A stretch of 45,677 bases of DNA from Oscillospiraceae bacterium (GTDB taxonomy: Bacteria > Bacillota > Clostridia > Oscillospirales > CAG-272). The notes beneath the pieces are model-generated. The model ran no database searches. It was not told where the DNA came from and worked only from the letters and a program-made list of their open reading frames with translations. The position numbers were made by a program, and so were the translations under genes. This document shows, piece by piece, positions 31 through 32,129 of this stretch; position 1 is the stretch's first letter; every line of letters begins with the position of its first letter. The stretch is taken from assembly GCA_015065135.1 (NCBI GenBank), contig SVQY01000015.1, positions 1-45,677 of the forward strand, given 5' to 3'.

Positions 31-305
31 AAGGCCATACCAGCCGGGGAAGTAGCGGAGCCCTGCACCTGAAATCCGCTATAGCAGGGGTGGATCCCAT
101 CCTTGAGGACCGAAGCGATGCGGTCCGGAGCGTACCCTTTCGTGATGAAGAGTGGGTCTTGCGCAATCAGACGCCGTGAACCATGTCAGGTGGGGAACCA
201 AGCAGCATTAAGCGGCCCATCTGATGTGCCGCGAGGGCGCCTGCTCCGAGCGGGAGGTGCGATTTCCGCGCAAAGGTGACGTTCGATTGGAAGGTGTATG
301 GTCTT
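31..305 (+). ncRNA. ffs: Signal recognition particle RNA, large bacterial type with Alu domain
   Basis: RNA scaffold of the signal recognition particle, which binds Ffh and targets nascent membrane proteins to the translocase. The universally conserved helix-8 region is visible around 172-232: GAACCATGTCAGG, then GGAAC and AGCAGCATTAAG, then ATGTGCCGCGAGGG. The 5' part (about 40-90) matches the Alu domain of Bacillus-type scRNA: CGGGGAAGTAGCGG, CCCTGCACCTG, then ATCCGCTATAGCAGGG. The ends pair as a closing helix, GGCCATAC at 33-40 with GTATGGTC at 296-303, followed by a T-rich tract. At about 275 nt it is the long Bacillota form rather than the ~110-nt 4.5S form. It sits just upstream of dnaX, a common arrangement. 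Ends are approximate. Confidence 0.93.
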
Positions 306-29176: not shown

Positions 29177-29259
29177 TCCATGCGGGTGTAGGCGGTCCAT
29201 TCCGCACGATCACCTCGCAAAACTCCATGCGGGTGTAGGCGGTCCATTCCGCCACACCC
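29177..29259 (+). repeat. Duplicated tRNA-5'-like leader units
   Basis: A 29-bp sequence (TCCATGCGGGTGTAGGCGGT then CCATTCCGC) occurs identically at 29177-29205 and 29224-29252. It resembles the tRNA 5' end GCGGGTGTGGCGGAATTGG at 29263. Copy 2 can form a stem GGGTGT(A)GGCGG / CCGCCACACCC (to 29259). The same CCGCCACACCC is a perfect 11-nt complement of the tRNA 5' region. Confidence 0.7.
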
Positions 29260-29262
29260 TAT

Positions 29263-29345
29263 GCGGGTGTGGCGGAATTGGCAGACGCGCCAGATTTAGG
29301 ATCTGGTGGTTATCCGTGCAGGTTCAAGTCCTGTCACCCGTACCA
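29263..29345 (+). tRNA. tRNA-Leu (anticodon UAG)
   Basis: Acceptor GCGGGTG pairs with CACCCGT (one G-U). The anticodon stem CCAGA/TCTGG (290-294, 302-306 in the 29 kb range) encloses TTTAGGA with anticodon TAG at 29297-29299, reading CUA codons. The long variable arm is typical of Leu. The T-arm GCAGG-TTCAAGT-CCTGT is present, and CCA is genomically encoded (29343-29345). Confidence 0.96.
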
Positions 29346-29388
29346 AAAAAAGCAAGGGCACCGTTTGGTGCCCTTGCTTTTTTTGGTA
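29341..29388 (+). terminator. Terminator fused to the tRNA 3' end
   Basis: Two perfectly complementary 22-bp arms (29341-29362 and 29367-29388) enclose loop GTTT. The core GCAAGGGCACC/GGTGCCCTTGC is followed by seven T. The left arm includes the tRNA's last bases and CCA. Confidence 0.85.
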
Positions 29389-29893
29389 CTGATTACGGCG
29401 AGAACCTGCCTCGCCGCAAGGCGATAGCAGGGCAAGTTTGCTTGCAAACTTGATAGCAACCGCAGGTTGCGTGGCAAGTAGGCGCGTAGCGCCGTCCTGT
29501 CACCCTCCTCCTCCGGCACCGTTTGGTGCCCTTGCTTTTTTGGTACTGATGACGGCGAGAACCTGCCTCGCCGCAAGGCGATAGCAGGGCAAGTTTGCTT
29601 GCAAACTTGATGGCAACCGCAGGTTGCGTGGCAAGTAGGCGCGTAGCGCCGTCCTGTCATCCTCCTCCTCTGGCACCGTTTGGTGCCCTTGCTTTTTTGG
29701 TACTGATGACGGTGAGAACCTGCCTCGCCGCAAGGCGATAGCAGGGCAAGTTTGCTTGCAAACTTGATAGCAACCGCAGGTTGCGTGGCAAGTAGGCGCG
29801 TAGCGCCGCCCTGTCACCCTCCTCCGCTAGCACCGTTTGGTGCCCTTGCTTTTTTGGTACCGATGACGGCGAGAACCTGCCTCGCCGCAAGGC
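29357..29893. repeat. 157-bp tandem repeat array, about 3.4 copies
   Basis: Units begin at 29357, 29515, 29672 and 29829 (last one partial) and are nearly identical. Each holds a series of short perfect hairpins: CGCC-GCAA-GGCG, CAAGTTTGC-TT-GCAAACTTG, GCAACC-GCA-GGTTGC, GGCGC-GTA-GCGCC and GGCACC-GTTT-GGTGCC, the last followed by CTTGCTTTTTT. The first unit starts inside the tRNA terminator. Open frames on the minus strand over this array are by-products of the repetition; the period is not a multiple of three and no RBS is seen. Confidence 0.85.
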
Positions 29894-29907
29894 GTAATAC
29901 GCAAAAC

Positions 29908-29930
29908 AAAAAAAGAGGCCTCGCGCCTCT
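29908..29930 (-). terminator. Intrinsic terminator of the minus-strand RNA
   Basis: On the minus strand AGAGGC-GCGAG-GCCTCT is followed by six T (plus-strand A-run 29908-29913). The opposite direction has no T-run, which fixes the strand. Confidence 0.75.
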
Positions 29931-29942
29931 CTCGTCGAAATC

Positions 29943-29990
29943 GAAATGACCCTTGATCATGTTTCTTTACACACGATCAAGGGTCATTTC
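29943..29990 (-). other. 16-bp perfect inverted repeat near the RNA 3' end
   Basis: GAAATGACCCTTGATC (29943-29958) and its exact complement (29975-29990) enclose a 16-nt loop. On the minus strand the 5' arm overlaps the stop codon of the nine-codon frame 29984-30013, so translation could affect folding. Confidence 0.7.
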
Positions 29991-30325
29991 TGTTCACTCT
30001 TGATATCTAACATCTTTTGTGATCCTCTCTTTCTGTTTTCTATCCGTTGCGTTTCATTGATCTACCACATCGCAAACACATTTTTTCGTTCTCTAAAGGA
30101 GAATACTTTTGTTTCGGTCGTATTCGTATGATCGCAAGGGATGCTCGGCGGAGGCCTTTCCGACACCCGTCGGCTGACACAAAGCCTCAAGCTTTTTCGC
30201 GCTCCATCTATGTTTCAGCGTAACACCGCCGTGTTTTTTCCTCCCAGTTTATTTGCCTTGCTTTGATTTGGCGATTGGGACGTTGGTTACTTGTACATTG
30301 GACTGTACCTCCTTTCTTCGCTTTC

Positions 30326-30354
30326 AGTATATCACATTTGCAAGTGCTTTGCAA
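30326..30354 (-). promoter_or_regulatory. Promoter of the minus-strand RNA
   Basis: TTGCAA (30349-30354) and TATACT (30326-30331), read on the minus strand, are spaced exactly 17 bp. TGA precedes the -10, giving an extended -10. Confidence 0.65.
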
Positions 30355-30429
30355 TTGGCAGATTGTAAGAAATAAACAAGAATTTTTTATACAAATAGCA
30401 GAAATTGACCCTTTTGCACAATTTGCCTC

Positions 30430-30459
30430 TTTACAAGCACCTATTCCTTGTGATATAAT
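30430..30459 (+). promoter_or_regulatory. Promoter of the small plus-strand RNA
   Basis: TTTACA (30430-30435) and an extended -10 TGATATAAT (TATAAT 30454-30459) are spaced 18 bp. It is back-to-back with the promoter at 30326. Confidence 0.68.
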
Positions 30460-30465
30460 AGATTT

Positions 30466-30536
30466 GTGATGGTGCAAAAAACCGCACATTCAAAGGCTGC
30501 ATCTGCAAGTGGGGGCGAAAAGCCTCCTCTTTTTTT
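30466..30536 (+). ncRNA. Candidate ~70-nt small RNA upstream of galT
   Basis: It begins about 7 nt after a strong extended -10 and ends at a terminator-like hairpin GGGGGC-GAAAA-GCCTCC (30511-30527) followed by TCTTTTTTT. A 5' hairpin GTGC-AAAAAACC-GCAC is visible. The galT promoter lies downstream of its terminator, so it looks free-standing rather than a galT leader. A 73-codon frame starting in it runs through the terminator and both galT control sites and is not credible. Family unknown. Confidence 0.5.
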
Positions 30537-30568
30537 GCAAAAAAATTCTAAAATAACGCTTTCCCCCT

Positions 30569-30597
30569 TTGACAAAGTGCATATGGAATGTTATAAT
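30569..30597 (+). promoter_or_regulatory. Sigma-A promoter of galT
   Basis: TTGACA (30569-30574) and TATAAT (30592-30597) are perfect hexamers at 17-bp spacing, 29 bp before the galT start. Confidence 0.85.
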
Positions 30598-30626
30598 AAA
30601 ATCAGTAATAAGCAAGGAGAGCATCT

Positions 30627-32129
30627 ATGTCGAACATCTGTTTTTACATCAAAGAACTTGTGGCCTATGCAGCCGACAAGGCACTGATCTGTGAGGCCGA
30701 CCGCACCTGGGCCACCAACGCTCTGATGGGTGCGCTGAAGGTCTCTGATATGACCGATGACGGCACCGCCGTGACCGGTCGCCCTCTGGAGGAGATCCTG
30801 AAGGATATTTTGGATTATGCGGTTGCGGAAAAGCTAATCGAAAGCGACTCCGTGGTCTACCGCGATCTGTTCGATACCTCCCTGATGGGCCTGCTGACCC
30901 CGCGCCCCTCCGAGGTCATTTCCACCTTCCGGTCGCTCCACCGCGAGGACCCCGAAAAGGCCACCGATTATTTCTACGATCTGGCACGCAACTCGGACTA
31001 CATCCGCACCTATCGTGTAAAAAAGGATCTGAAGTGGGTCTATGCCAGCGAGTACGGCAATATTGATATCACCGTCAACCTGTCCAAGCCCGAAAAGGAC
31101 CCCAAGGCCATCGCCGCCGCCAAGCTGCTGCCCCCCAAGAGCTACCCCAAGTGCCTGCTCTGCCACGAGAACGAGGGCTACGCCGGTACTCTTTCTCATC
31201 CGGCACGCCAGAACATCCGTCTGATCCCGATGCAGATGGCCGGCCAGGATTGGTTCCTGCAGTATTCTCCCTACGTCTATTATAACGAGCATTGCATCGC
31301 TCTCTCCGCCGCACACACCCCGATGAAGATCGACCGCTCCTCCTTTGTGAAGCTGCTCGACTTTGTGGAGCAGTTCCCCCATTATTTCCTTGGCTCCAAT
31401 GCGGACCTGCCCATTGTGGGTGGCTCGATCCTCTCTCACGACCATATGCAGGGCGGTCACTACTCCTTTGCAATGGAAAAGGCACCCATCGAGCATCCCC
31501 TGACCTTCAAGGGCTTTGAGGATGTTACCGCCGGCATCGTGCGCTGGCCGATGTCTGTGATCCGTATCAACGGTACCGACAAGACGCGCCTCATAGAGTT
31601 GGCTGACAGGATCCTGCACGCGTGGCGCGGCTATACCGACGAGGCAGCCTTTATCTTTGCCGAGACCGACGGCGAGCCTCACAACACCATCACCCCCATC
31701 GGCCGCATCCGTGACGGCAGATTTGAGCTGGATCTGGTGCTGCGCAACAACATCACCACCGAGGAGCATCCTCTCGGCGTTTACCACCCCCACGCGGATC
31801 TTCACAATATCAAAAAGGAAAATATCGGCCTCATCGAGGTCATGGGTCTGGCCGTGCTGCCCGCACGCTTGAAGGACGAGATCGCCACCATGTGCGATGC
31901 CATTCTGCAGGGCAAGGATTTTGCCGAGGATGAGACCATTGCCAAGCACAAGGAATGGTTCCTGAAATTTAAGGATAATTACACCTTTACCCCCGAAACG
32001 GTACGCGAAATCATTGAAAAAGAGATCGGCGCCACCTTTGTCAAGGTGCTGACCGATGCAGGCGTTTACAAGCGCGATGCAGCAGGCCTTGCCGCCTTCC
32101 TCCGCTTCGTGGATGCCGTTAATCAGTAA
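30627..32129 (+). CDS. galT: UDP-glucose--hexose-1-phosphate uridylyltransferase (class II GalT)
   Basis: Leloir-pathway enzyme exchanging UMP between UDP-glucose and galactose-1-phosphate. The 500-residue length and the sequence (AYAADKALI near the start, LLTPRPSEVISTF, DFAR-like YDLARNSDYIRT, CLLCHENEGYAG, GGSILSHDHMQGG) are those of the Firmicutes-type enzyme rather than the ~350-residue enterobacterial form. The nucleophilic His is likely in the HDHMQGG region. AAGGAG precedes the start. No galK or galE is adjacent. It shares a transcript with the kinase-like gene 14 nt downstream. Confidence 0.95.
   Translation: MSNICFYIKELVAYAADKALICEADRTWATNALMGALKVSDMTDDGTAVTGRPLEEILKDILDYAVAEKLIESDSVVYRDLFDTSLMGLLTPRPSEVISTFRSLHREDPEKATDYFYDLARNSDYIRTYRVKKDLKWVYASEYGNIDITVNLSKPEKDPKAIAAAKLLPPKSYPKCLLCHENEGYAGTLSHPARQNIRLIPMQMAGQDWFLQYSPYVYYNEHCIALSAAHTPMKIDRSSFVKLLDFVEQFPHYFLGSNADLPIVGGSILSHDHMQGGHYSFAMEKAPIEHPLTFKGFEDVTAGIVRWPMSVIRINGTDKTRLIELADRILHAWRGYTDEAAFIFAETDGEPHNTITPIGRIRDGRFELDLVLRNNITTEEHPLGVYHPHADLHNIKKENIGLIEVMGLAVLPARLKDEIATMCDAILQGKDFAEDETIAKHKEWFLKFKDNYTFTPETVREIIEKEIGATFVKVLTDAGVYKRDAAGLAAFLRFVDAVNQ

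Follow-up and report, generated by a model that had tools for sequence, protein, structure and literature searches.

The locus and its transcription unit

The window analysed here, the whole 45,677-nt stretch of DNA from an Oscillospiraceae bacterium, carries on its minus strand at 29908..30354 what looks, from its sequence signals, like a real free-standing RNA gene. Specifically, a promoter search finds a sigma-70-type promoter, TTGCAA-17-TATACT with a TG before the −10 box, at 30326..30354 (minus strand), and a terminator search finds at 29911..29933 (minus strand) an intrinsic terminator, the second that the RNA has in this genome. The first terminator hairpin, of 20 bp, has a poor T-tract in the window (UUUCGAUUUCG). 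Both the promoter and the terminator had been claimed in an earlier sequence-only reading of this DNA, and both are present, read in the direction of transcription at 30354..30326 and 29933..29911. Around the locus (29700-30640) four promoter-like sites were found versus a mean of 1.2 in 50 shuffles, and the same search found four terminator-like sites versus a shuffle mean of 1.3. The predicted RNA (29908..30320, minus strand) is about 410 nt long, with its start placed ~7 nt past the −10 box and its end at the terminators. The minus strand of these 413 nt folds at −130.6 kcal/mol versus a shuffle mean of −96.4 (z −6.87) and none of 100 shuffles is as stable, so that the ~410-nt structured stretch described earlier is borne out. 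The statement that there is no credible protein holds at a limit of 60 aa: the one minus-strand ORF of at least 60 aa listed as overlapping the RNA (30489-30208, 93 aa) has its start codon ahead of the promoter. On the plus strand, two listed ORFs of 61 and 68 aa share part of the RNA stretch.

Downstream of the RNA (3′) in the window come the second terminator and then a tRNA on the opposite strand. A tandem array (29357-29894; 157-bp unit, 3.4 copies, 96% matches) lies between the RNA gene and this plus-strand tRNA-Leu, which is located within 29180-29345 and beside which two copies of a TGCGGGTGTAGGCGGTCCATTCCGC-like stretch were seen by eye. Upstream of a divergent gene (30627-32129) there are plus-strand promoter matches at 30430-30459 and 30569-30597 (11 and 12 of 12) with a terminator-like hairpin between them (30511-30528); a short leader or a second small transcript is possible on the plus strand of 30430-30597. 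The large bacterial SRP RNA is found at the start of the window (35-301, 167 bits).

The sequence-only reading had left the RNA unassigned, and it stays so: none of the 4227 families of Rfam 15 reaches its gathering cut-off at the locus, the only matches at cut-off in the window being the SRP RNA and tRNA-Leu. Nine sub-threshold matches lie near the locus, HOXB13-AS1 among them and mir-2363 the best (31.6 bits versus a cut-off of 90), and no plausible bacterial class is found among the nine. The absence of tmRNA, RNase P RNA and 6S RNA noticed earlier agrees with the covariance scan. More specifically, there is neither a covariance match nor an ARAGORN call for tmRNA at the locus, and the canonical tmRNA of the genome sits on another contig (G000:C34, 148 bits, over the cut-off). 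There is no covariance match at the locus for 6S RNA or for RNase P RNA either; a 6S-like candidate lies elsewhere in the genome (G000:C13, 42.5 bits, just below the cut-off of 46.4). A known orphan class such as raiA had also been suggested, and the all-family scan does not support this: no model, including any for raiA that release 15 may contain, matched at the locus. In the open-licence PMC literature searched no paper contains the peptide string MLDIKSEQK, and we recognised there no description of a mini-ORF combined with a terminator-overlapping ORF in a free-standing RNA. The family is undescribed in Rfam 15 or in the literature searched.

Relatives, distribution and gene context

BLASTN gave matches in 23 of 59 genomes (all genome counts include the window's own genome), and a degenerate pattern for the 3′ module found at least 116 stretches in GTDB genomes. 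The 80 listed of these at least 116 matches all come from MAGs whose titles give Clostridia, Oscillospiraceae or Eubacteriales bacterium, in one case Candidatus Faecousia faecavium; ruminant gut samples are named in many of the titles. One degenerate pattern run on the BLASTN and pattern loci gave 152 matches, and the 124 that are distinct over 290 nt form the 124-member set, in which invariance is partly due to selection because a single pattern defined the set. Addition of 10 divergent loci gave a 134-member set, in which L150 repeats L086 and from which L030 and L163 were left out.

From 56 of 111 thinned sequences a covariance model of the 3′ module (R1) was made. In the genus it has matches in 18 of 21 genomes (5 of the 6 good-quality ones), and in the family in 33 of 118. 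In the class, 15 of 291 genomes match at E 0.01; 12 of them were judged real, loci L160, L161 and L162 in the other three were read as chance terminator hairpins, and locus L157 is unreadable in the orientation used. A phylum-wide draw gave one match in 299 genomes at E 1e-8, the window's own genome. It is important to note that searches over 40 genomes used stricter filters and lost weak matches. Counting without opposite-strand covariance matches on the same hairpin, there is one strong copy per positive genome in the genus, with an extra weak match in G020 and G004, while G027 has three copies in tandem and G032 three on different contigs. In loci L015 (G027:C45) and L186 (G394:C8) the 3′ module occurs in tandem, ~550-590 bp apart. 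Conservation outside close strains and covariation had been named earlier as the tests of a functional RNA. Both were found: matches extend across the genus, the family and the 12 class-level genomes judged real, and covarying helices are present in the 3′ stem and in the core of relatives. We consider it highly probable that this is a real family of conserved RNA genes carrying tiny ORFs, present in uncultured Clostridia. Occurrence in the family is patchy, with a match in 20 of 60 sampled genera, which suggests that the RNA is dispensable. The degenerate pattern has no match in IMG/VR and BLASTN of the 3′ module against plasmids and phages has none; a phage or plasmid element was rejected on this lack of matches in phage, plasmid and viral collections.

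Of the 70 members with enough flank, 39 have a nearest downstream ORF on the strand of the RNA and 31 have one on the opposite strand; for the nearest upstream ORF the numbers are 42 and 27, again in members with enough flank. The mixed downstream orientation makes the RNA look free-standing, as had been claimed from the window alone, and the RNA is distinct from the tmRNA and the 6S-like RNA of the genome. ORFs were called mechanically and therefore single neighbour assignments are rough. No neighbour family is found at more than 8 of 120 loci, and the one that reaches this number occurs on either side of the RNA and on either strand. A partial exception is a protein that, from its sequence, we take to be MnmG/GidA-like: in seven loci (L058, L075, L082, L088, L114, L128 and L133) its gene precedes the RNA on the same strand, at a distance of 671-1703 nt from the 3′ ORF, which looks like local synteny in one lineage. 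The 42 listed same-strand downstream ORFs, some of them maybe spurious, are diverse by eye apart from the loci with metF or metH, names that we assign presumptively from sequence. Presumed metF adjoins the RNA in L103, L107, L109 and L118 and presumed metH is near it in L103, L107 and L109, on the opposite strand in L103. A cis-regulator of a downstream gene was considered and rejected on the mixed orientation and the lack of a widely shared downstream family.

Two short reading frames and a folded core

Comparison with relatives points to a mini-ORF near the predicted 5′ end, ATG TAC AAG TAA (MYK; ATGTACAAGTAA), at 30287..30298 on the minus strand. Its GGAGG Shine-Dalgarno, found by motif search, is at 30308..30312 (minus strand), with GG(n)CC directly before the AAUG. 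The arrangement of a Shine-Dalgarno and an ORF of a few codons close to the 5′ end is that of a minigene. In the genome GGAGGTACRGTCCRATG has one exact copy; the 11 more at 2-3 mismatches are no excess, because a reversed-pattern control gives 19. In relatives a −10-like box recurs 17-35 nt before the mini-ORF AUG. The motif was first seen by eye as GGAGGUAC(A/G)GUCC-AAUG-nnn-nnn-UAA, and the form tested was [AG]GG-n(3-7)-CC-nATG with a −10-like box at most 50 nt upstream and no stop required. This motif is present in 105 of 134 members. In 103 of the 105 promoter-linked motifs an in-frame stop follows after one (8) or two (95) sense codons, versus an equally early stop in 2 and 0 of the 105 in the two other frames and after 138 of the 623 other ATGs found in this region. 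After thinning to <80% identity the early in-frame stop is found in 92 of 94, versus 2 and 0 in the other frames. The 103 mini-ORFs use 10 second and 21 third codons, giving 39 different peptides, and the stop is UAA in 93 of them. Some members have tandem mini-ORFs, in one to three copies; inner copies stop after two codons in 11 of 12, counted with a pattern that misses GGAAGG-type copies. Since codons 2 and 3 vary but the early stop is kept, these comparisons indicate that selection acts on how long the ORF is and not on the peptide that it encodes.

Two of the 105 motifs break the rule: the first copy in L015 has 10 sense codons after the ATG, and L064 has 8, with the usual stop out of frame. 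Among the 29 members without the motif, nine are cut by the locus end, seven were recovered by a looser pattern or reading (L045, L048, L065, L117, L125, L131 with a TTG start, and L149) and 13 remain. Six of these 13 were read: L124 has a variant mini-ORF, L021, L043, L105 and L116 have no mini-ORF after the promoter-like box, and in L133 the promoter-linked element is not recognisable. In L043, L105 and L116 a purine stretch of the GAGATACC type still follows the promoter, but there is no AUG mini-ORF; these members could reveal what the Shine-Dalgarno does without an ORF.

The 3′ ORF, ATG TTA GAT ATC AAG AGT GAA CAG AAA TGA (MLDIKSEQK), was located by comparison at 29984..30013 on the minus strand, with a GAGG Shine-Dalgarno (30024..30027, minus strand) 10 nt before the ATG; the spacing is 10 or 11 in 124 of 134 members. 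In-frame ORFs of 8-10 sense codons running into the hairpin were found in 17 of 18 divergent loci, a set less biased than the 124-member set but read with a script that sought ORFs of exactly this length; L024 gave none. These ORFs start with ATG, GTG or TTG. Whole codons are inserted (MKLDLKSEQK, MKLDFKSEQK, MTLDIKSEQK) or deleted (MLDIKNHK), and synonymous changes occur (TTA/CTA, AAG/AAA, ATC/ATT, AAA/AAG). L163 has MSEPKNEQK and L164 has MAEPKSEEN. The stop is mostly UGA, and UAA in L030, L152 and L156 comes with a matching change in the opposite arm.

The stop codon of the 3′ ORF lies within a 3′ hairpin (29943..29990, minus strand), identified by folding and covariation. The sequence-only reading had reported here a perfect stem of 16 bp; the stem is real but its length is 20 bp (29990-29971 with 29962-29943; −34.1 kcal/mol, z −11.6). 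The overlap of the MLDIKSEQK stop with the stem was correctly seen. In an alignment of 56 relatives 98.4% of the cells of an 18-bp stem are paired, and 9 of its 18 pairs show changes on both sides; none of 500 shuffles reaches the observed values and a slid register destroys the pairing. In all 56 the stop codon is within the stem. At least five T are found in the 9 nt after the stem's arm in 121 of 131 members, which makes the 3′ hairpin usually a terminator.

Both frames had been noticed earlier (MYK at 30298-30287 and MLDIKSEQK at 30013-29984) as small features of a non-coding RNA. They are present as described, but comparison turns them into a conserved core of the gene, and judging from this conservation both are very probably translated. 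The MYK AUG had also been placed in a hairpin arm; a 5-bp hairpin exists there, but it is not significant alone (23 of 200 shuffles fold equally well).

Between the two ORFs length and content vary strongly among members. The long-range helix P1 pairs CCUUGCG (30133..30139, minus strand) with CGCAACGG (30044..30051, minus strand), with one bulge. The P1 of the window differs from that of relatives, CCUUUUGC/GCAAAAGG, and still pairs. P1 was aligned in the window and 40 of 45 members picked by a CCTTTT motif, so that this choice accounts for part of the invariance of the left strand; 97.3% of cells are paired in these 41 sequences. As searched, the P1 motif is found in 45 of 134 members, and L159 is nearly without the upstream half. 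Covariation points to a second hairpin, H2, UUCUC-CUUUA-GAGAA (30089..30103, minus strand), with 5 of 6 pairs changed on both sides and 76.4% of cells paired in the same 41 sequences. For P1 and H2 together, three of five measures beat 500 of 500 shuffles (cells paired, covariation score, and both-side-changed cells with 33 versus 13.6), 34 and 36 of 500 shuffles attain the observed values of the remaining two, and slid registers are worse. H2 is moderately supported, since the RNAalifold consensus on a similar set has P1 only and the alignment-free longest stem is 5.4 versus 4.6 in shuffles. In the window the H2 loop CUCCUUU could pair with AAAGGAG, the Shine-Dalgarno of the mini-ORF; this idea was rejected on relatives, whose H2, e.g. 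UCUCGUUAGAGA, does not keep the match. Further upstream, motif search gave an ACAC-GGCG-GUGU hairpin with a candidate pseudoknot GCG:CGC followed by ACAUAGA (30207..30234, minus strand). The motif CAC-G(RCG)-GUG...(CGY) is present in 40 of 121 members versus 5 of 1210 shuffles, and the loop base and its partner are concordant in 45 of 45 occurrences (G-C 40, A-U 5). The pseudoknot is only a proposal, because folding of this region alone gives an alternative hairpin, CGGCG/CGCUG, as the minimum-energy structure.

Possible roles and comparison with known systems

Comparison of members gives a minimal ORF behind a Shine-Dalgarno in most of them, a folded middle and a 9-10-codon ORF ending in the terminator stem. 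Our preferred reading, put forward tentatively and with somewhat less than half of our confidence, is that these structured RNAs form a new class, free-standing and in part translated, with ribosome protection at the 5′ end and a translation-coupled 3′ hairpin. Ribosomes on the minimal ORF would occupy the first ~30-40 nt of the transcript and shield it from a 5′ exonuclease (RNase J-type), and the immediate stop would free them before the core is unfolded. A published precedent is an mRNA that is shielded from RNase E by the ribosome occupying its six-codon mini-ORF, and minigenes are described in the same source as acting in cis (PMC8708949). For B. subtilis, PMC3997798 describes how long downstream RNA is made more stable by a ribosome binding site close to the 5′ end, and a strong Shine-Dalgarno can be enough there even if no start codon follows; such stabilisation by the Shine-Dalgarno alone leaves the kept start and stop unexplained. 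The two rule-breaking motifs of 105 (first copy of L015, L064) and the members without a 5′ ORF also speak against protection. At the other end of the RNA, the ribosome that finishes MLDIKSEQK would open the lower part of the hairpin. As a ribosome at the last codon or stop must open the lower stem, translation of the 3′ ORF and the hairpin would be mutually exclusive, and RNA release, length or 3′ stability could be made dependent on 3′ ORF translation.

It is also possible, though we find it doubtful, that the minimal translation cycle is itself the conserved functional part, the RNA being a device that senses or governs ribosome initiation and termination in Clostridia. At its 5′ end such a device would carry between one and three ORFs on which ribosomes dock, their length fixed and their sequence arbitrary; a folded core would follow, and then a 3′ ORF of nine or ten codons whose termination opens the hairpin.

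Other explanations put the weight on single parts. If MLDIKSEQK were a leader or arrest peptide controlling the overlapping terminator and thereby a downstream gene, the stop codon inside the stem in 56 of 56 aligned members and the T-tract in 121 of 131 would be expected, and the anatomy is indeed like that of ribosome-mediated attenuators. The short ORF overlapping a terminator is there, but a conserved same-strand downstream gene is not: of 70 members, 39 have their nearest downstream ORF in the same orientation and 31 in the opposite one, the largest neighbour family (8 of 120 loci, both sides and strands) is not widely shared downstream, and in the window the second terminator and the opposite-strand tRNA come next. 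Gene order has already weakened this explanation, which we regard as quite improbable. Binding of a ligand by the core could gate translation of the 9-codon ORF, as has been proposed for the Downstream-peptide/yfr6 RNAs, and P1, H2 and the candidate pseudoknot do lie upstream of a conserved short ORF; the Downstream-peptide motif is a precedent for structured RNA before a short ORF (PMC2864571). The variable middle (pseudoknot motif in 40 of 121 and P1 motif in 45 of 134 members, L159 nearly without the upstream half) and the lack of a ligand candidate make riboswitch-like action rather improbable. An ordinary base-pairing small RNA with incidental RBS-like sequences has the poorest prospects and is very unlikely, since codon logic is kept in the form of in-frame stops, alternative starts, synonymous changes and whole-codon indels, even if purine-rich SD-like stretches could pair with pyrimidine-rich targets and some members have no AUG.

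The minimal ORFs might instead act in trans, as minigenes that tie up ribosomes, initiator tRNA or termination factors by repeated initiation and termination or by peptidyl-tRNA drop-off on the one to three tandem copies, so that the RNA tunes translation capacity. A strong Shine-Dalgarno, 2-3 codons and UAA in 93 of 103 mini-ORFs match features of toxic minigenes, but in the available sections of the same source the minigene acted in cis and was overproduced without growth inhibition (PMC8708949). Tandem copies in some members and the unconserved peptide sequence fit such a brake on translation; the conserved 3′ ORF and the folded core would be left without a role, and there is one gene per genome in the genus, weak second matches aside. 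We consider it unlikely.

An RNA family that occurs in several families of Clostridia and is marked by the length, rather than the sequence, of a 2-3-codon ORF would be a sign that minimal ORFs are kept in bacteria as parts of RNAs. The family offers natural material for testing whether minigenes serve in protection, ribosome docking or translation sensing. Note that searches for non-coding RNAs and ORF callers with a length cut-off can both miss such genes.

Several known systems share parts of this anatomy. In ribosome-mediated attenuators a leader-peptide ORF overlaps an intrinsic terminator, as the 3′ ORF does here, but the present RNA has no shared regulated downstream gene. tmRNA (RF00023) is similar in length and has a short ORF ending in a hairpin, whereas it has no match at the locus. 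ROOL, GOLLD, OLE and raiA are likewise free-standing structured RNAs, ornate orphans of unclear function; the RNA described here differs in its tiny ORFs and has no Rfam 15 match at the locus. Downstream-peptide/yfr6 RNA is also short and combines a structured part with a small conserved ORF, but it is cyanobacterial, its ORFs are typically 17-100 aa and a mini-ORF goes unmentioned in the available sections of PMC2864571. The 5′ stabilisers of Firmicutes such as STAB-SD make an RNA more stable through a ribosome bound close to its 5′ end, as we propose here, but the start codon is unneeded there (PMC3997798), whereas a start, one or two codons and a stop are kept in most members of our family. 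The minigenes axe-txe mg2 and the six-codon mini-ORF of EHEC LEE4 have a strong Shine-Dalgarno with an ORF of 2-6 codons and a proposed protection of RNA in cis (PMC8708949, available sections); they are located in leaders of protein genes, while here the minimal ORF belongs to a free-standing RNA, is kept across bacterial families and is sometimes in tandem. The single pieces, minigenes, terminator-overlapping ORFs and orphan structured RNAs, have precedents; for their combination in a free-standing gene, neither the Rfam 15 families at their cut-offs nor the open-licence PMC literature searched gave a counterpart.
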